Positions 6,517 to 27,645 of a stretch of 27,645 nucleotides of DNA are shown one piece after another. Within the stretch, counting starts at the first letter, position 1; the number at the start of each line of letters is the position of its first letter. The stretch is taken from the IMG/VR virus record IMGVR_UViG_3300006026_000074, positions 1 to 27,645 of that record, one strand, 5' to 3'. The notes beneath the pieces were generated by a model. It ran no database searches. It was given only the letters and a program-made list of their open reading frames with translations, and was not told the origin of the DNA. The position numbers and the translations under genes were made by a program. The stretch comes from a virus.

Positions 6517-6545
6517 TTGCAAATGTCAGTTGCTGCAGGTTGCTT
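6517..6545 (+). promoter_or_regulatory. Candidate promoter P2 (TTGCAA-N17-TTGCTT)
   Basis: TTGCAA at 6517-6522 is followed after 17 bases by TTGCTT (6540-6545), which runs into TATAAA (6545-6550). Bases 6517-6531 match the copy at 23438-23452 at 14 of 15 positions (TTGCAAATGWCAGTT). It lies in the 107-base gap between the divergent portal and scaffold genes and would drive the head/tail operon. TATAAA is an alternative -10 element. Confidence 0.5.
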
Positions 6546-6548
6546 ATA

Positions 6549-6572
6549 AACGCCTCGTGACTGCAAGGCGTT
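6549..6572. repeat. 7-bp inverted repeat in the divergent portal/scaffold region
   Basis: AACGCCT (6549-6555) and AGGCGTT (6566-6572) form a perfect seven-base inverted repeat with a ten-base loop. It overlaps the TATAAA sequence and predicted start of the rightward transcript. It could be an operator for a dimeric regulator or a short hairpin at the mRNA 5' end. There is no T-tract, so it is not a convincing terminator. Confidence 0.45.
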
Positions 6573-6610
6573 GTTTCACAATGTCACGGCAGCACGACTT
6601 GGAGGATTCG

Positions 6611-7441
6611 ATGCTGGACGACACCACCAACTCGGAAGGGACCGTCGACGACGGCAACCTGGACGAGAGTGGCGCGTCGGTGATCGAGCAGCCCGCCGAG
6701 CCCGCCCTGGCCGATGCGCAGCCCGAGGACCCGACTGCCAACCTGCAGACGCTGGACGACTGGATGGCCAGTGCCCCCGAGCACCTCCGCGAGGAGTTGG
6801 AGGGAGGCTTCCTGCGGGGCCGCGACTACACGCAGAAGACGCAGTCCGTCGCCGAGGAGCGGCGTCGGCTGGAGGCCGAGTACCAGGCCCGCCTTGCGGC
6901 GCTTCCGCAGCAGCAGGAGCCCCCGCAGGCCGAGCCGGCGAAGTCGTGGACGCCCGACGACATCAGGGCGAACCCGGTCGGGTACATGGATCACCGCGTC
7001 GAGGAGCGCGCGTCGGCCATCGTCGAGGAGCGGCTCGCCGCCCTGGGCCTGAACGACGTCAAGCCCGCCCTCGACAAGATCCGCTGGGAGGGCAGCATCC
7101 GCAGTGCCTTCCAGAACTACCTGAGCGCGGACCCGGCTCGCGCGGCCATCCGCGGGCTGGGCGACAGCATCGCCGAGGTCATCGGCAGTGACCCGTCCCT
7201 ACGCGCTCTGGCCGACTCGAACCCCGACGCCGCCGTGGCTGCCGCTGGCAGCGTCGCGATGGCCCGCCGCGCCGAGCAGCAGGCCGCGTCGAAGCTGGCG
7301 CAGATGCGCAAGACGGCGGTCGCGAAGCGCGAGGCCGCGCCCCTGTCCACCCAGGCTGGGGCTCCGACCCCGCCGCGAAGCTCGCAGACCGACATCGAGG
7401 TGGCGAACGCCGCCCTCGCCGAGGCCTTCGGAACCAACTAG
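6611..7441 (+). CDS. Capsid scaffolding protein, 276 aa
   Basis: This is called from position (between portal and major capsid gene) and composition. The first 50 residues are strongly acidic and disordered, followed by a helical region with a DYTQKTQSVAEERRRLEAEY coiled-coil segment, a Gln/Pro-rich hinge, a second long helical part with many Ala and Glu, and a basic helix (about 220-250) before the C-terminus. Helical, charged scaffolds with a basic capsid-binding end are typical; it would guide prohead assembly and then leave or be degraded. The ATG at 6611 was preferred because GGAGGA at 6601-6606 precedes it; the in-frame ATG at 6581 is an alternative giving ten more residues. Confidence 0.8.
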   Translation: MLDDTTNSEGTVDDGNLDESGASVIEQPAEPALADAQPEDPTANLQTLDDWMASAPEHLREELEGGFLRGRDYTQKTQSVAEERRRLEAEYQARLAALPQQQEPPQAEPAKSWTPDDIRANPVGYMDHRVEERASAIVEERLAALGLNDVKPALDKIRWEGSIRSAFQNYLSADPARAAIRGLGDSIAEVIGSDPSLRALADSNPDAAVAAAGSVAMARRAEQQAASKLAQMRKTAVAKREAAPLSTQAGAPTPPRSSQTDIEVANAALAEAFGTN

Positions 7442-7467
7442 CCCGGTAGAGGGCTCAGGAGAACGAC

Positions 7468-8559
7468 ATGACCCAGTCGATCACCATCGACCCGCTCAAC
7501 CGGGTCTACACGACCACCGCCGAGCACCGGAAGAAGGAGGTCGTGTTCGACATCGTGCAGGCGTCGCCGACGCTCATGCACATGTTCAACCAGGGCGCCT
7601 ACAAGCTGGTCGGCGGCACCGAGGTGAAGTGCCCGGTCGTGCTGAAGGAGTCGAGCAACGTGCGCTCGATCTCGAAGTACGAGACGCACACCTCGGCTCC
7701 GCAGGACGCTCCGCAGGAGGCCCGGTACGTCGGCTGGTACAAGCTCTGGGGCGGCATGGTCTTGGACAAGACCGAGATGTCGGAGAACGCCAAGGCCGGC
7801 GGCGCCCAGGTCGTCTCGCTGGTCGAGACGCACGAGACGCAGATGTGCATCAGCGTCAAGAACGACATGTCCCGCCAGTTTTTCGCCGACAACTCGTCGG
7901 CCGCGAAGGACCTGAACGGGCTGGAGTCGCACCTCGACTTCGACACGACGGCGAACCAGACCCGCACGGTCGGCAACATCCCGAAGGCCGGCGCCGCGTC
8001 CAACGCGTACGCCAACTGGGTCAACCAGTTCGGGCAGATCACCGCGTTCGGCACCGACGGCCTCGAGGTGATGGAGGAGGTTTACATGGACGCCTCCGAG
8101 CTCGGCACGCACCCGGACATCGGCCCGTGCGACCCGGCCGTCTACCGCTTCTACAAGGAGACGGTGGCGCCCAACCAGCGCGAGCGGGACAAGAAGCTCT
8201 GGGACCAGGGCTTCCTGAACCTGATGTTCAACGGCATGGCTCTCGTCCCCGAGCACCAGCTGAAGAACACCGGCAAGCTGTTCATGCTGACCACGACCGG
8301 CCGCCGCAAGGTCGACGACTACAACCTGTCGGCGTCCGACTTCGAGGGCCCCGACGCCCTGCGCGGCCCGATGGGCAAGGCCACCGGCATCGGCTTCCAG
8401 CTGTACTTCCTGCGGGACGACTTCTTCCGCTTCACGGACTTCATGACGCCGCCCAACGCCGACGTCGCGATCCGTAACATGTACTGCTCGTGGGTCCTCG
8501 GCAACGCCTCGCAGCGCCGCCAGGGCTGCATCAACTTCAGCGGCACCGTCCAGTTCTGA
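7468..8559 (+). CDS. Major capsid protein, HK97-like fold, 363 aa
   Basis: This is the main shell protein. It follows the scaffold by 26 bases with a strong AGGAGA ribosome binding site. Its size and layout fit HK97-fold capsid proteins: an N-terminal arm, a strand-rich region with KYETHTSAPQDAPQEARYVGWYKLWGG (E-loop-like, about 71-97), a long spine-like helix around ETHETQMCISVKNDMSRQFF (about 125-144), and a C-terminal A-domain with strand-rich segments such as FQLYFLRDDFFRF. Identity rests on gene order and these general features, not on an exact family match. No N-terminal protease or long processed delta domain is evident. Confidence 0.82.
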   Translation: MTQSITIDPLNRVYTTTAEHRKKEVVFDIVQASPTLMHMFNQGAYKLVGGTEVKCPVVLKESSNVRSISKYETHTSAPQDAPQEARYVGWYKLWGGMVLDKTEMSENAKAGGAQVVSLVETHETQMCISVKNDMSRQFFADNSSAAKDLNGLESHLDFDTTANQTRTVGNIPKAGAASNAYANWVNQFGQITAFGTDGLEVMEEVYMDASELGTHPDIGPCDPAVYRFYKETVAPNQRERDKKLWDQGFLNLMFNGMALVPEHQLKNTGKLFMLTTTGRRKVDDYNLSASDFEGPDALRGPMGKATGIGFQLYFLRDDFFRFTDFMTPPNADVAIRNMYCSWVLGNASQRRQGCINFSGTVQF

Positions 8560-16073: not shown

Positions 16074-17729
16074 ATGGCCCTCCCGACGGACAATCTGAGC
16101 GACGTCGCAGGCGCGAACGTGCTGACGGGCATCCTCCAGGGTGCGCTGCAGGGCGTTCAGGTCGGCGACCAGTTGATCTCCAACGCCCAGCGTCGGAACC
16201 TCGCCGAGCGCCGCACGCGCCTCGCGGAGGAGGCCGGCGCCCGGCAGCGGGAGATGCACGATCAGCGGATGGCTGCTGCGGCAGGCGCCCTGACCTCTGC
16301 CCTGTTCGGCGACGAGTCGGTCGACGAGGGGCTCGGCGGTGCGGGTGCGGCCCGTGGCTCGCGCGGGACTCGTGGTGCAGCACCAGCTGCTGCGCCCGGG
16401 CGTGACGACCTGCGTTCGGCTGCGGCCGCGGTCGACGCCATTGGTCGGGCGGAGCAGGCGATCCAGGCGGCCGACGCCGCCCGTGCTGCCGAGCAGGGCC
16501 GTGGGCCTGTGGCTGCACTGACCTCGGCATTGGGTGGCGCGACGCGCCGTGCTGCCGAACTCGGCGGTGTGGACATGGCCGCGCGCGAGGCCCTCGGCTC
16601 GATGCTGGTGCCCGACCCGGACATCATGGAGGGCGCGCCTGCCTACGGTCGTGGCGGTGCCGGCCGCAGCCGGGAGCACGCCGCGCTGCTGCAGGCCGCG
16701 GAGGGCGGGCGTCTCGACCTCGGCACCGACGACGGTGTCGGGCAGGCGTTCGGGACCTTCGAGAAGCCGCAGGGGGCACTGGTCCCGGGTCGCGCGCCGA
16801 CCAGCCCGGACTCGTTCGGCGGGATGCTGAACCCGGCCGCCGCGGCCCTGGGGCTGGACCCGTCGACGGTCGTCGACCCGGGCGCCCTCGCGACGGCGGT
16901 GGAGGCCTACCGCCGCGGCAACCCAGCGGCCCTGCGTGCCATCTCCCGCCGCATTGGCCGAGACGACCTGACCGCCGACGCCCTCGATGGCCTGGCTGCC
17001 GACGTGAACCTGTTCAACTTCCGGGCCCGCGAGCACCTGCGTGGGCTGGCGGCTGCCGAGCAGCGGAGCGTGGAGGACGCCCAGGACTTCACCGACACGT
17101 TCATCCAGTTCCTGCCGCGGGTCGGGCTGACGGACGAGGAGGCCTCGGAGTTCGCGCCGGAGTTGGCGAAGCTGTACACGGCCGACCCGAAGAACGCCGG
17201 CAAGATGCTGGACGCGCTGTCGACGCTGGCGTCGAAGGGCATCGACCTCGAGGTGGCGAAGGTCGGGAAGAAGCCGACGGTCCGGTACACCTACCAGAAG
17301 GGCGACGAGTTGGACCGCCAGATGCGGACCATCAACAGCCGCCTGTCGGACGTGAACGACTCGCTGGACGCACTGCGTCGGAACCCGCCGAAGCGGCCGA
17401 AGTATCGGGAGGGGTATCAGGACCAGATCGACTCGCTGGAGGCCGAGAAGTCGCTGTACCAGACCCAGCTCGACACGCTTGTGACGACGGGCAAGTACAT
17501 TCCACTCGACGTCGTGCGCCGGGAGTCCGGCACCCCTGCGCCGGGCAGGGCGTTCAGCCTGACGTCCGAAGTGAACCGGATCCAGGCGGAGTTCTCGTCT
17601 CGGGAAGAGCAGGCGGGCGAGGTGCGTCGGATGTTCAACGCTGGTGAGATCAGCAAGAAGCAGGCCGACGAACTCGTTGTCGCGTTCAAGCGGCGTGGTG
17701 CGGACAACACGGCACAGGTTCGGAACTGA
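16074..17729 (+). CDS. Putative internal virion (ejection) protein, 551 aa
   Basis: Third gene of the ejection block, two bases after the preceding stop, with GGAG about ten bases upstream. The first 35 residues have a small hydrophobic/Gly segment (VLTGILQGALQGVQVGDQL) of the type common at the start of ejection proteins, then a Lys-poor, Arg/Glu coiled coil. Residues about 85-200 are Ala/Gly/Arg-rich and low in order. From about 250 on it is helical, with a charged coiled-coil (LDRQMRTINSRLSDVNDSLDAL) around 405-435 and a short helical C-terminus (ISKKQADELVVAFKRRG). No transglycosylase motif is evident. Its TGA overlaps the next ATG by one base. Confidence 0.62.
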   Translation: MALPTDNLSDVAGANVLTGILQGALQGVQVGDQLISNAQRRNLAERRTRLAEEAGARQREMHDQRMAAAAGALTSALFGDESVDEGLGGAGAARGSRGTRGAAPAAAPGRDDLRSAAAAVDAIGRAEQAIQAADAARAAEQGRGPVAALTSALGGATRRAAELGGVDMAAREALGSMLVPDPDIMEGAPAYGRGGAGRSREHAALLQAAEGGRLDLGTDDGVGQAFGTFEKPQGALVPGRAPTSPDSFGGMLNPAAAALGLDPSTVVDPGALATAVEAYRRGNPAALRAISRRIGRDDLTADALDGLAADVNLFNFRAREHLRGLAAAEQRSVEDAQDFTDTFIQFLPRVGLTDEEASEFAPELAKLYTADPKNAGKMLDALSTLASKGIDLEVAKVGKKPTVRYTYQKGDELDRQMRTINSRLSDVNDSLDALRRNPPKRPKYREGYQDQIDSLEAEKSLYQTQLDTLVTTGKYIPLDVVRRESGTPAPGRAFSLTSEVNRIQAEFSSREEQAGEVRRMFNAGEISKKQADELVVAFKRRGADNTAQVRN

Positions 17730-20700
17730 TGGCGGATGGGCAGGCCACTGGAGTCGACCCGTTCGACGAACTCGCCGAGACGTTGGCAGCGCCAACTGCG
17801 ACGTCTGCGGTCGATGCCGTCGATCCGTTCGATGTCCTGTCCAGTGAGTTGTCCACAGCAGCCCCTGCCGACGACCGGCCAGATGAAGCAGTGCCTGCTG
17901 GCGCGGATCCGTTCGACGACCTGCTTTGGGGTGCGCTCGAGCCAGACCTGATGCCTTTCCAGCGGGAGCTCCGCTCGCTGGGCCAAGATGCGTTCCGCGG
18001 CGTGCCTCCCGAGAAGCTCCCGCGGGTCATCGAGATGTGGGACGAGTACGCGGCCTTGGCGTCGACGCCTGGCCGCACCCCCGAGGAGATGGCCGAGGAC
18101 AACGAGCGGCTGGTCGAGCTCATGGAGTTCGCCGGGCTGCACGACGAGGTGCGGAAGGCGAGCAAGGAGTCCGGGTACATCATGACCGGCGTCTCGGCGC
18201 TCGGGGAGGCGTTCGACAAGCTCGTCGACCGCCCGACGCGCGCGTGGATGCGGACGCTGTGGGACACGCGGCGGACGGCGCTGGAGAACGACGAGCCGAT
18301 GGGGCTGGGCGCCGCCGACCGTGAGCGCCTGAGCGGGATGTTGCTGCAGAACTACGAGGACAAGGCCCCCGGCGGCCAGGTGCTGCGCGACATGGTCGCC
18401 TACGTCCAGTCGTTTGGCACCACGGCCGAGGCCCTCAAGGACATGCGCCAGAAGCGCGCCGCGGCCCTGATGATGGGCGGCGCGTTCGACAAGCTGCGCG
18501 GCGTCGTTGGCGCCGGCCTGGCGTCGACCTCCGACCCGATGGGGCTGTCGGACGTGGTGCTCGGAACCGGCGGCGAGTCTGACGAGCGGACGCTGGCCCT
18601 GCGGGACGCGGTGAAGAACGCCGAGTCGTTGGCGGACCTGTTCGTCGGGGAGTCGGCGCGCGCGGCCACAGACGTCGGGTACGGAGCCGTGGGGGCGCAG
18701 CAGGCCCTGGCGAACCTGCTGCTGCACGGGTCGACGACCGAGGCGAAGGAGGCGTGGCGGGACGCGATGCGGGCGTCCGAGGAGGCGAAGGACGCCGGGG
18801 CCGTCGGCGGTCTGCAGGCTCTCGACTTTGCCGGCGAGGCGGCGATCAGCCCCTTCAACCTGCTGAACCCGACGAAGACCGTCGCGGCCGGCGTGAAGTT
18901 GACGAAGCAGGGCGACGACATCGTCCGGTCGCAGATCGCGAAGGCGGGCGAGGGTCTGTCGGGCCGGGCGCAGATCGACGCCGAGCGGGCCGCGACGACG
19001 GCGTTCGTCCAGTCTGTCGATGCGGCGTGGAAGGGCGAGTACCGGAACCTGCTGCGCGCGCCAGAGCACCTCGAGTTGCATCAGCATCTGCGGGGCGCGC
19101 TGCACGACGACGTGGCCGACGAGGTGTGGGAGCAGGCACTACGGACGGACGCTGCGCGCGGCGTGGTGACGACGGACCTTCTGGTGCGACCGGAGGCCCT
19201 GGCCCTGGGGCCGGACGGCCGCATGGTGCTGACGCCCGACGCCAAGGTGGACTTGTACGCGGACCTCGCCGACGAGGTGCTTGACGGGCCGGCGATGCGG
19301 GGCGCCCGCAAGGAGTACGCCCGACTGGTCAAGGAGGGCGACGAGGCTGCGGTCGACACGTTCCTGACCGAGCAGGCAAACCTCGGCGTGCGGCTGATGA
19401 ACGAGGCTGCGCGCCTCCCTGAGGCGGGCCGGGCGGCGGCGCGTGAGGCCGTGAAGCGCCAGCTGCGGCGCGGCGAACAGGCCCGCCCGACCGGCGTCGC
19501 CGACCGACAGGCCCGCTGGGTGACCCGGCAGGCGACCGACGCCGACGCGCAGATCATCTCCGACCTCGACGCGGCCGGGTTCGCGGCCCAGGTGCTGCTC
19601 GCCCAGCGGCTGCCGGACGAGGTGCTCGGGCCGTGGGACTTCGTCCGCACCCAGGTCAACACGCTGGGTCGGCCGGACAGCACCCCGACGCTGCAGCGCG
19701 GCGGTCGGGCGGCGAACCGGCACCCGGCGTCCTTCGCGGCGGCCGAGCGCCTGCGGAAGCGGGACGCGACCCGGAAGGCCATGCAGGGCGTGGTCCGGGC
19801 GCGCGTGCTGGAGACGCTGCAGCGAACGACCCGCAGTGCGTCGGAGCGGCGGGCGGCGATGGACGTGCTCGAGCACGGGTTTCTCGACCTTGCGACCGAG
19901 CAGGAGTTGGCCGCCGTGTCGGGCCTGCGGGAGATCGAGGAGGCTCTTGCCGGTGGTCAGTTGCCGACGGGCGGCCCGGAGGCCCAGCGACTGGCAGCCG
20001 CCCGTCAGGCACTGGCTGACGCCCAGGGCGAGGTGGAGGGCGCCAACGAGGCCCTGCGCGCCTTCGACGAGTCTGTCGCCTCGATGTCGGCCGCCGGTCG
20101 GCCCCGGGGCGATGTCGTCAAGGAGGCACGCGCGAAGGTTCGGGCTCTGCGCCAGTCGAGCCAGCAGGTCGTCGAGCGGGAGTTGATCGCCCAGGGCGAG
20201 GCGCGCGCCATCGCGGAGTCTGCTGCCGAGACGGCTCAGATCGCCGAGGCCAACGCCCTGCTCAAGCGGGTGGAGGAGGCGCAGGCCGAGGGCAACCCAA
20301 GCATCAAGGTGGGCGAGTCGTGGCTGTCTCGGTCGGATGCGCGGAAGGCTGCCTACGCGGCCCGCAACGAGGCCCAGGGCATCATCGACGCGCGAGTTGC
20401 CGAGTACCGCCGCGGCGCCCGGGAGTTGGCGAAGCAGGCTGGGCTGCGGGCGGAGGAGGCGGTGGTGTCGGGCAGACGATCCGCCGACGAACTGGCCGGC
20501 GCCGACGCCGACCTCGCCGCCCTGAGCGACGAACTCGGCGGCGACCTCCGCAAGCACCGGGACGTGCAGGCGGCCCTCAGGGAGGCCCGCGACTCGTTCG
20601 GCGCCAACCAGAAGGCGGTCGAAGTGGAACTGCAGGGCGCCCGCGAGGCGTACCGTCGCGCGGAGTCGGCGAGGGCCCTTGAGGGGCTGAGTCGCACCGA

Positions 20701-23905: not shown

Positions 23906-24733
23906 ATGTCGGCGACCATCATCAGCCCGGTCCCGCCGACGCCAGCCAACAGCGCGACCATCATCAGCCCGGTGCAGCCCAACCAGGACGGCGACTCCGA
24001 CGCCTTCCTGACAGCTGTGCTGGCCATCTCCGGCCTGCTGTACATCTACCAGCCGCCGGATTCGGTGGGTTCGCTGTCGTCGGGCAACGACTCGATGGTG
24101 GACCGCCAGGAGACGGGGACGACGGGCACTGTCGGCACGTCGGCGGCTGATGCGTCGATCGTCAACTCGGGGTTCTCGACGGACTCGCTGTCGCGCGCAC
24201 TCGTCCGCGACGCTGGCGCAGCTGCGAACGGCACGAACCCGGCACCGGCCTTCGGTGTTTCGGTGGGGCTCTCGGGGCCGACCGAGGGGACGTGGGTGCT
24301 GGTGCTTCAGGGCGACGTGGACTTCGCCGGCACCCGGAACGTGCTGACTTTCGACAACTCGGCGCCGTCGACAGACTTGAACCGCCGGGTGCTGCTGTCG
24401 ACGTCGGGGGCGAACATCACGGCCCAGTACCGCGGCTCAACGCCGAACTCAACGATGACGACGGCGGACTTCAAGGCGTCTGGGGCGGTGTTGATCATCA
24501 CGCGCGATGCGACCAGCAGCGAGCTCGGCTGCTGCCTGGTGGCGGCTGGCGGCACGGTTTCGGTGACGACGGCGACTGTCGGCACGCTGAACTGGGACGG
24601 CGGCGTCATCATGGTCGGCAACGCGGGCATCACGCCGGCGTCGTTCGCGGAGTTCGGCGTGGCTGCGGCCGTCGTGTACGACAACGTCCTGAGCACCGCC
24701 GACCTGCAGACCATCGTCGACGCCGTCGCGTAG
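23906..24733 (+). CDS. Putative tail fibre/adhesin with LamG-like domain, 275 aa
   Basis: The N-terminus repeats SATIISPV twice (residues about 2-9 and 16-23), then a short hydrophobic helix (FLTAVLAISGLLYIY, about 34-48). From about residue 70 the sequence is Ser/Thr/Gly-rich beta structure with FGVSVGLSGPTEGTWVLVLQG, NRRVLLSTSGANITAQYRG and a closing VVYDNVLSTADLQTIVDA. A last strand followed by YDxxLSxxxLxxI is characteristic of LamG/concanavalin-like lectin domains, which bind sugars or surface polymers. It is probably a host-binding or virion-surface protein. The ATG lies three bases after the previous stop. Confidence 0.62.
   Translation: MSATIISPVPPTPANSATIISPVQPNQDGDSDAFLTAVLAISGLLYIYQPPDSVGSLSSGNDSMVDRQETGTTGTVGTSAADASIVNSGFSTDSLSRALVRDAGAAANGTNPAPAFGVSVGLSGPTEGTWVLVLQGDVDFAGTRNVLTFDNSAPSTDLNRRVLLSTSGANITAQYRGSTPNSTMTTADFKASGAVLIITRDATSSELGCCLVAAGGTVSVTTATVGTLNWDGGVIMVGNAGITPASFAEFGVAAAVVYDNVLSTADLQTIVDAVA
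23912..23973 (+). repeat. 20-bp direct repeat in the fibre gene 5' end
   Basis: GCGACCATCATCAGCCCGGT occurs at 23912-23931 and again at 23954-23973, 42 bases apart, so in frame (14 codons). It encodes the duplicated ATIISPV peptide. A related peptide, ATVISPL, occurs near residue 41 of the protein encoded at 25230. Confidence 0.85.
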
Positions 24734-24741
24734 GAGTGCAG

Positions 24742-25230
24742 ATGTCCTTCTCCCAGACCAGCATGGACCGCCTGAGCACCTGCCACCCGGACCTGCGGGT
24801 GCTGTTCATCGAGGTCGACGCGATGGGGTTCGAGTGCTCGATCCTGTGCGGCGAGCGCGGCGAGGAGGCGCAGGACAACGCCGTGGCGAGGGGGGCGAGC
24901 CAGACCCCGTGGCCGAAGTCGAAGCACAACAACCCCGAGGTCAACGGGGTGAAGCGCCACCCTGAGGGCGTGCCGGCTGTGGACGCGGCGCCGTGGTACA
25001 GGGACACGAAGATCCCGTGGAACATCGACGCGCGGACGGCGGAGGGTCGAGAGAACCTGCGTCGGTGGTACTTGTTCTGCGGCTTCGTCCGGGCGACGGC
25101 CGAGTGCCTGTACCGCGAGGGCAAGATGCAGCACCGGGTGCGTGGTGGCCACGACTGGGACGGGGACATGACGTTCAGTGACCAGCGGTTCCACGACCTG
25201 CCGCACTGGGAACTCATCGGGGTGAAGTGA
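24742..25230 (+). CDS. Endolysin, M15-family zinc peptidase, 162 aa
   Basis: This enzyme would cut peptidoglycan stem peptides at lysis (M15 phage enzymes are L-Ala-D-Glu or D-Ala-type endopeptidases). Conserved features in order are S7xxxL11...CHPDL (14-18), a Gly-x-Arg (37-39) followed by Q44, the SKH zinc ligand H62, the AVDAAPW zinc Asp D81, a HDWDGD block (137-142) and the HDLPHWEL end with D152 and zinc ligand H155. The spacing between H62 and D81 is longer than the usual SxHxxGxAxD. There is no signal peptide or separate cell-wall-binding domain, so export would need a holin. The ATG at 24742 has GGAGTG upstream; its stop overlaps the next ATG. Confidence 0.85.
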   Translation: MSFSQTSMDRLSTCHPDLRVLFIEVDAMGFECSILCGERGEEAQDNAVARGASQTPWPKSKHNNPEVNGVKRHPEGVPAVDAAPWYRDTKIPWNIDARTAEGRENLRRWYLFCGFVRATAECLYREGKMQHRVRGGHDWDGDMTFSDQRFHDLPHWELIGVK

Positions 25231-26843: not shown

Positions 26844-27455
26844 ATGACCGCCATCATCTCGCTGCTGCTGTTCACGTTCCTCGCGTTCGGCATTCTCTGC
26901 CTGGCCTGCTACAGCCTGACCGAGGTCTGGAAGGTGGTGTACCTGAAGCCTCGCTACGAGGATCGGTACGGCGTTGACGAGGTCAACGACAAGGAGAGCC
27001 GGCCGGTGCCGGTGGGCCGGCGTCGCTACGTCACGGCAGTTCGCACGATGCCCAATGTCATCGGCCTGGTCGCCGGCGGCATGCACTGGCTGGTTTACCT
27101 GCTGGCGCTGGCTGTGGCCCCGCTACTGCCTGAGGGCGCTGTGGCTATCGAGACTGTGGCCGACCACATGCAGCCGTGGCCGAGTGGGCTGCAGCCGTTT
27201 GCGGAGCCGCTGCTCGGGTTGGCGGCCGGCGGGCTGGCCATCGCTGTCCACAACGCAGTGGGCGAGTCACTGAACGAGGCGACCCGTGCGTTCATGCTGC
27301 GGTTCGTCAGCATGGTGACGCCGGGTGGCAAGGAGCCAAAGGGCGACTGGCAGTACCCGGGCTCAGAGTCTTCGCGTGGGTCGACGCTCGACGCCTACGC
27401 CGACGGGACGCTGACGAGCCAGCACAACGTGTCCGCGGTGGAGGAGAAGCCATGA
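26844..27455 (+). CDS. Membrane protein, candidate holin, 203 aa
   Basis: The ATG directly follows the previous stop. Residues 3-24 are a strongly hydrophobic N-terminal membrane segment (or signal anchor); after a charged loop, about 72-94 (MPNVIGLVAGGMHWLVYLLAL) is a second, and about 122-142 (LLGLAAGGLAIAV) may be a third, shorter one. The C-terminal 40 residues are hydrophilic. Location two genes after the M15 endolysin, which has no signal peptide, makes it the best holin candidate in the window, though it is larger than many holins and has no recognised family. Its stop overlaps the ATG of the receiver-domain gene (ATGA). Confidence 0.6.
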   Translation: MTAIISLLLFTFLAFGILCLACYSLTEVWKVVYLKPRYEDRYGVDEVNDKESRPVPVGRRRYVTAVRTMPNVIGLVAGGMHWLVYLLALAVAPLLPEGAVAIETVADHMQPWPSGLQPFAEPLLGLAAGGLAIAVHNAVGESLNEATRAFMLRFVSMVTPGGKEPKGDWQYPGSESSRGSTLDAYADGTLTSQHNVSAVEEKP

Positions 27456-27645
27456 CCCGCCGTGCGATCGTGGTCGAGGACCAGCCCCATGTGCTGGCCG
27501 GGCTGGCGCGCCTGCTGTCCGACGTGCTGGGCTACAGCGTGGCGCCGGAGGACCAGTGCTCGACGCTGGAGGAGGGGGTTGCGGCCCTTTCCCGTGCGCC
27601 CATCCCGGCGTTGGTCATCTGCGACGTGTACATCCCGTCGAAGGA
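27452..27645 (+). CDS. Response-regulator receiver-domain protein, partial (3' end outside window)
   Basis: Sixty-four complete codons are present before the window ends. MTRRAIVVEDQPHVLAGLA has the classic receiver start: a hydrophobic strand followed by the acidic pair E9-D10. A helix, a second strand region and then LVICDVYIP give the phosphoacceptor D58 at the correct distance, with the usual D(x)xxP turn. In receiver domains the acidic pair binds Mg and the later Asp takes phosphate from a histidine kinase. GGAGGAGAAG ends just before the ATG, which overlaps the stop of the membrane protein gene. Whether an output domain follows cannot be seen. Confidence 0.8.
   Translation, partial: MTRRAIVVEDQPHVLAGLARLLSDVLGYSVAPEDQCSTLEEGVAALSRAPIPALVICDVYIPSK

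Follow-up and report, generated by a model that had tools for sequence, protein, structure and literature searches.

Why does a phage encode a two-component receiver domain among its fibre and lysis genes? The question is raised by a 27,645-nucleotide stretch of viral DNA (the window), which is the whole of IMG/VR record IMGVR_UViG_3300006026_000074, a 27.6-kb phage contig whose end truncates the receiver gene. An earlier note, made from the sequence alone, had read this partial gene as a receiver domain within a phage fibre/lysis operon. Our analysis confirms that reading and provides moderate evidence that other phages have recruited such genes separately into the same kind of neighbourhood.

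The receiver gene and its operon

The receiver reading frame starts with the ATG at 27452 and occupies the final 194 bases of the window. The 64-residue fragment that they encode, MTRRAIVVEDQPHVLAGLARLLSDVLGYSVAPEDQCSTLEEGVAALSRAPIPALVICDVYIPSK, starts with MTRRAIVVEDQ and ends with LVICDVYIPSK, and its translation bears out the earlier placement of E9-D10 and D58 at receiver positions. By itself the fragment scores 20.6 bits (E 5e-4) against the Pfam family Response_reg (PF00072), below the family cut-off of 30.2 bits. The remainder of the gene lies in a second viral record, IMGVR_UViG_3300025610_000037 (50,073 bp; L002 below), which is 100% identical to the window over positions 1-24212 (24,212 nt) and again over 26849-27645 (797 nt). 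These overlaps at both contig ends imply a circular phage map of about 52.7 kb, and the DNA past the window end, which the earlier note had allowed might be host chromosome, is phage DNA. A third record of the same phage (IMGVR_UViG_3300007346_000092; 99.98% identity) stops short of the receiver region, so that three IMG/VR records, 99.98-100% identical, represent the phage. It may be temperate, since one of its contigs carries a serine recombinase-like gene (Table 1).

The complete receiver has 152 residues and matches Response_reg with 45.6 bits (E 9e-12, residues 6-125), well past the cut-off. In addition to the acidic pair E9/D10 and the phospho-acceptor D58, alignment to other receivers identifies S91 in strand 4 and K114 in strand 5, the two residues on which the earlier note had staked its reading of the continuation, as well as Y111 and P115. 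The receiver fold is likewise borne out by structure prediction: an AlphaFold model from a 15-row alignment has a mean pLDDT of 87.2, with strands and helices in the canonical (beta-alpha)5 order and a disordered tail of about 20 residues from approximately residue 131 (a model built without an alignment, with a pLDDT of 53, was discarded). Foldseek matches the model to the structures of CheY, PhoB, KdpE and HK853-RR468, with TM scores of about 0.8 by target length for CheY and PhoB; among viral structures, it is matched best by the PT11-V22 receiver, from an Alteromonas phage. Pfam detects no output domain in the 152 residues, and between the receiver portion (to residue 130) and the tail there is neither room for nor a profile match to the C-terminal winged helix of DNA-binding PhoB/OmpR-type regulators. 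The protein is thus organized as a single-domain, CheY-like response regulator, and its residues and fold predict a complete, phosphorylation-competent, stand-alone receiver.

Nor was a histidine kinase found, which the earlier note had considered as a possible companion: G000 and G001, which jointly span the circular map of the window phage, yielded no HATPase_c or HisKA domain, and thus no cognate kinase with which the receiver could form a complete two-component system. Searches with the full-length receiver found no relative in genome_contigs and, at a threshold of E 1e-3, none in the phage collection, and neither a diverged homologue of it nor diverged relatives of its phage were found. 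An apparent second viral locus (L003), which matched the fragment with 45% identity over 39 residues, encodes no receiver.

The receiver is tightly embedded among phage genes (Table 1). Its ATG overlaps the TGA of the upstream membrane protein gene by four nucleotides (ATGA), the coupling that the earlier note had described, and its own TGA overlaps the GTG start of the downstream gene in the same manner (GTGA). The GC content (0.68) and GC3 (0.88) of the receiver gene match those of the phage genes, and the receiver would be expressed late, together with the fibre/lysis operon. The upstream membrane protein is a candidate holin, although no protein of the window phage could be recognised as the holin by a family match and the endolysin lies three genes upstream of the receiver. 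The downstream protein consists of a coiled coil followed by a single C-terminal transmembrane (TM) segment, N-in, as judged from hydropathy, flanking charges and heptad signal (p 0.02). Beyond it, the second contig encodes a protein of 137 aa, several small TM proteins and one with a signal peptide, and then genes on the opposite strand; farther upstream, the window encodes a terminase, the capsid and a 1901-aa virion protein.

Table 1. Features of the window phage, in window positions unless another contig is named
Feature	Position	Strand	Remarks
Major capsid protein	7468-8559		Weak likeness to the Myxococcus phage Mx9 counterpart (22.7%, E 9e-8), its sole match in the annotated phage collection
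275-aa protein, function unassigned	23906-24733	+	First gene of the late operon's fibre/lysis part
Endolysin	24742-25230	+	phrog_465, E 8e-17; no Pfam match
Virion structural/fibre protein, 538 aa	25227-26843	+	C-terminal half is phrog_1645; 31% identity to cyanophage virion structural proteins
Membrane protein, 203 aa	26844-27455	+	N-terminal TM and 1-2 further hydrophobic segments; no family match
Stand-alone receiver, 5' part	27452-27645	+	64 codons of 152; whole gene in the identical overlapping contig at L002:604-1062
Anchored coiled-coil protein, 143 aa	L002:1059-1490		Directly downstream of the receiver
Serine recombinase-like gene	G001 reverse complement 17119-17814		
Open reading frame	G001 reverse complement 6525-7886		Opens with a long Ala-Thr low-complexity repeat

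Receivers in the lysis modules of other phages

The earlier note had called receivers uncommon in phage structural or lysis operons. They are indeed rare overall, but they recur in Alteromonas phages and are present in at least three further lineages, the window phage included. A survey by similarity, for which the PT11-V22 gene and genes related to it served as seeds, recovered stand-alone receivers in lysis modules of some eight further phage lineages. Most of these are Alteromonas phages, with L062/L071 and L076 in addition, and the receivers lie directly beside, or at most two genes from, holin, spanin or endolysin genes. In the myovirus PT11-V22 the order is fibre, chaperone, amidase, coiled-coil protein, receiver, Rz-like spanin and two-TM protein; PT15-A5 (Schitoviridae) has the same core, including the spanin, together with an endolysin. 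The siphovirus R9Y1 has a fibre gene, a TM plus coiled-coil protein, the receiver and a GH108 lysozyme, and the Autographiviridae phages R8W and H4/4 have a fibre gene, a class II holin, a single-TM protein, the receiver and a membrane protein. Similar arrangements occur in PB15 (fibre-like gene, XhlA-like protein, receiver, M15 endolysin), in L035/L036 (fibre chaperone, TM plus coiled coil, receiver, Amidase_3), in L062/L071 (two-TM protein, TM plus coiled coil, receiver, Amidase_2) and in L076 (two-TM protein, receiver, one further gene, M15 endolysin). Nine other phage records with such receivers carry exactly one receiver per genome, and none of the nine has a HATPase_c match over the family cut-off.

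Placement beside lysis genes is frequent and not a rule, as receivers are located elsewhere in several phages (L037, L063, L075, L079, L080/L081 and L083). Lysis placement was found in 9 of 16 lineages (binomial p 1e-5 to 1e-3 at an assumed background of 11-20%), or in 5 of 11 when related receivers are merged (p 0.004 to 0.05 at the same background), figures that are only illustrative, since they assume both a background rate and independence and come from a homologue-seeded search. Alteromonas phage PT11-V19 encodes a degenerate receiver (L042:4001-4453) that has lost the phospho-acceptor Asp; it adjoins a single-TM protein and has no recognised lysis genes beside it. The L037 gene (L037:2600-3223) encodes a 207-aa protein, a receiver with a Cys-rich C terminus, between portal/protease-like and capsid-like genes on an HK97-like phage contig.

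Several candidates were left uncounted: the majority of the 'phage' records that receivers matched, which are unannotated fecal, Listeria, Staphylococcus or Salmonella contigs resembling host DNA; L061, L077 and L084, which appear chromosomal; L078, where an OmpR/kinase pair lies at the edge of a prophage; and L074:749-1144, a stand-alone receiver at a contig edge, on the strand opposite to an Rz/GH19-like/holin-like cassette. The L074 gene is convergent with its lysis cassette and may be a moron or host flank.

These loci have a common feature: in all nine that were scored (eight lysis-module loci, the window's included, and PT11-V19; L076, whose receiver has a two-TM protein as its upstream neighbour, was left out), the receiver adjoins a gene whose small helical product is rich in charge and spans the membrane once. 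Such genes make up 10 of 18 receiver-adjacent genes, compared with 2 of the 74 remaining genes of these stretches (Fisher p 3e-7), a descriptive figure since the thresholds were chosen after the set had been seen. In the window phage this neighbour is the anchored coiled-coil protein. The anchor is N-terminal in most partners and C-terminal in those of the window phage and PB15, and the charges flanking the TM segment predict a cytosolic helical part in both arrangements. Coiled-coil character was judged from composition and heptad signal, the latter significant in only some of the partners. The partners have diverged so far in sequence that they give no family match to one another, and they were therefore compared by topology alone.

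Origin of the receivers and likeness to known systems

In a maximum-likelihood tree the Alteromonas-phage receivers form a group (92/76), whereas the window receiver is placed with cellular ones and has a Microvirga receiver as its neighbour (87/66). A single clade of the window receiver and the Alteromonas set is rejected (AU p 0.023), as is a single clade of all lysis receivers (AU p 0.007). Most Alteromonas-phage receivers also have a C-terminal extension after alpha-5, which is absent from the window receiver. Because one clade is rejected, the lysis receivers appear to have been recruited convergently into the same kind of neighbourhood; the branches are long and the constrained groups were named after the tree had been seen, so that the evidence for this is only moderate. 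The earlier suggestions of a host-derived accessory gene and of a gene that tunes lysis timing are compatible with each other: in the tree the receiver groups with cellular ones, and in the genome it occupies a position common to the lysis-module receivers of other phages.

With CheY and other single-domain response regulators the window receiver shares the fold, the acidic pair, the phospho-Asp, the Ser/Thr, Tyr and Lys residues and the lack of an output domain. In contrast to CheY, it is encoded by a phage in a late fibre/lysis operon, has no chemotaxis or kinase partner that we could find, and ends in a disordered 20-residue tail. A parallel in arrangement is ORF30 of vB_AmeM_PT11-V22, likewise a stand-alone protein of about 150 residues that follows fibre genes and adjoins an anchored coiled-coil protein. 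ORF30, which is annotated as a hybrid sensor histidine kinase - response regulator, also adjoins the Rz-like spanin; it is only about 24% identical to the window receiver, has the C-terminal extension, and has its partner upstream rather than downstream, and the tree rejects a clade that unites the two. R8W gp48 and H4/4 gp44 are also stand-alone receivers, with 4-nt overlaps with a single-TM protein and a class II holin ahead of them. They differ in belonging to Autographiviridae phages, in being related to the R9Y receivers and not to the window's, and in having been published as a phosphate auxiliary metabolic gene (AMG). R8W gp48 (L039:3995-4456, MW043865) and its counterpart in L040 are annotated as DNA-binding response regulators, and the R8W paper names gp48 PhoB and proposes a role in phosphate adaptation (PMC8228385); we take gp48 to be a receiver without a DNA-binding domain, because its 153 residues leave no room for a winged helix. 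The R9Y paper does not mention that phage's receiver (PMC9430817).

The cREC domain of jumbo phages is likewise a phage-borne, receiver-like domain with catalytic Asp residues, but it is linked to NAD+ and cyclic nucleotide processing genes (PMC7824862). The neighbours of the window receiver are membrane and lysis genes, with fibre, endolysin and membrane proteins in place of NAD+/ADP-ribose or RNA-repair enzymes. The pinholin gp63 and lysis regulator gp62 of phage N4 are single-span, N-in proteins with a cytosolic helical timing domain, the topology of the window phage's anchored coiled-coil protein; N4, however, has no two-component receiver, and the 'Receiver domain' described there merely names a regulatory region of gp63 (PMC12642591). 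XhlA-type hemolysin/holin-associated proteins also have a coiled coil followed by a C-terminal TM segment and lie beside endolysins. The PB15 partner matches this type (phrog_937, E 2e-16), whereas that of the window phage has no match below E 0.01 in Pfam or PHROG, and hence neither an XhlA nor a class III holin profile. In a search limited to papers available without subscription, no published account of receivers among phage lysis genes was found, which leaves novelty unproven.

Possible function of the receiver

Our preferred reading, held with somewhat less than even confidence, is that the phage-borne receiver is an input switch on lysis that acts through the partner or the upstream membrane protein. 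D58 would receive its phosphoryl group from histidine kinases of the host or from small phosphodonors, for example acetyl phosphate; the receiver, in its phosphorylated or unphosphorylated form, would bind the cytosolic coiled coil of the anchored partner, the upstream membrane protein, or both; and this binding would alter when or whether the holin-like proteins trigger. Intact catalytic and switch residues in an intact fold, a phage in which no kinase was found, the 4-nt overlaps at both ends and the recurring neighbourhood all favour this reading, and the control of N4 lysis timing by the cytosolic parts of single-span lysis proteins is a precedent (PMC12642591). Against it we count the receivers located away from lysis genes, the loss of the Asp in PT11-V19, the distant endolysin, the holin without a family match, the missing C-terminal extension and the failure to find a diverged homologue. 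The more general proposal, that a receiver with an anchored coiled-coil protein is a repeatedly invented lysis-control module, sited among lysis genes and not described before, by which kinase-less phages read host phosphosignals to set the time of lysis, is advanced more tentatively still.

Few molecular handles outside T4 and N4 exist for asking whether lytic phages sense host physiology in timing lysis, and through which molecules. If lysis-gene receivers act on holin-like proteins, two-component phosphorylation would be such a handle, the cultured Alteromonas phages R8W, H4/4, PB15, R9Y1, PT11-V22 and PT15-A5 would offer immediate test systems, and the annotations 'PhoB, phosphate AMG' and 'hybrid histidine kinase' would need correcting. 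Since unrelated phages have placed similar switches at the same kind of site, some phages may use host signals as a cue for lysis.

The main rival to a switch on lysis is that the receiver serves as a phosphate sink or decoy, drawing phosphoryl groups away from the kinases of the host at a late stage of infection and muting a host response, for instance to the envelope stress caused by lysis proteins; closeness to lysis genes would then reflect late timing only. Such a role, which we consider somewhat unlikely, would suit a stand-alone receiver without an output domain in a phage that yielded no cognate kinase, and phages do target host kinases by other means, as in the binding of FleS and PilS by the phage protein PIT4 (PMC10714779). 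It leaves unexplained, however, why the gene is repeatedly coupled directly to a small membrane-anchored helical protein and why it is sited in the lysis module and not among early takeover genes.

Slightly less probable is a host-derived accessory gene with no fixed lysis role, inserted recently at a tolerant spot between the fibre and downstream genes. The fibre/lysis boundary is a common spot for extra genes, and both the position near the Microvirga receiver and the rejection of one clade with the other lysis receivers fit a separate acquisition from a host. A recent insertion is harder to reconcile with overlaps at both ends, with base composition matching the phage genes, with retained catalytic residues and with the same neighbourhood in several other phage lineages.

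We regard as improbable that the receiver, instead of acting on lysis, regulates the assembly of virions or fibres, or acts by way of FliM-like targets on motility or an envelope process of the host: such a role could draw on the fibre gene two positions upstream and on the CheY-like fold, but the tight neighbours of the receiver in other phages are membrane and lysis genes, not fibre genes. Finally, contamination or mis-assembly, in which a host receiver was fused to a phage contig, is scarcely credible in spite of the receiver's location at the contig end, since it is already contradicted by the second contig, which is 100% identical, holds the receiver inside phage sequence with overlapping reading frames, and closes a consistent circular map.
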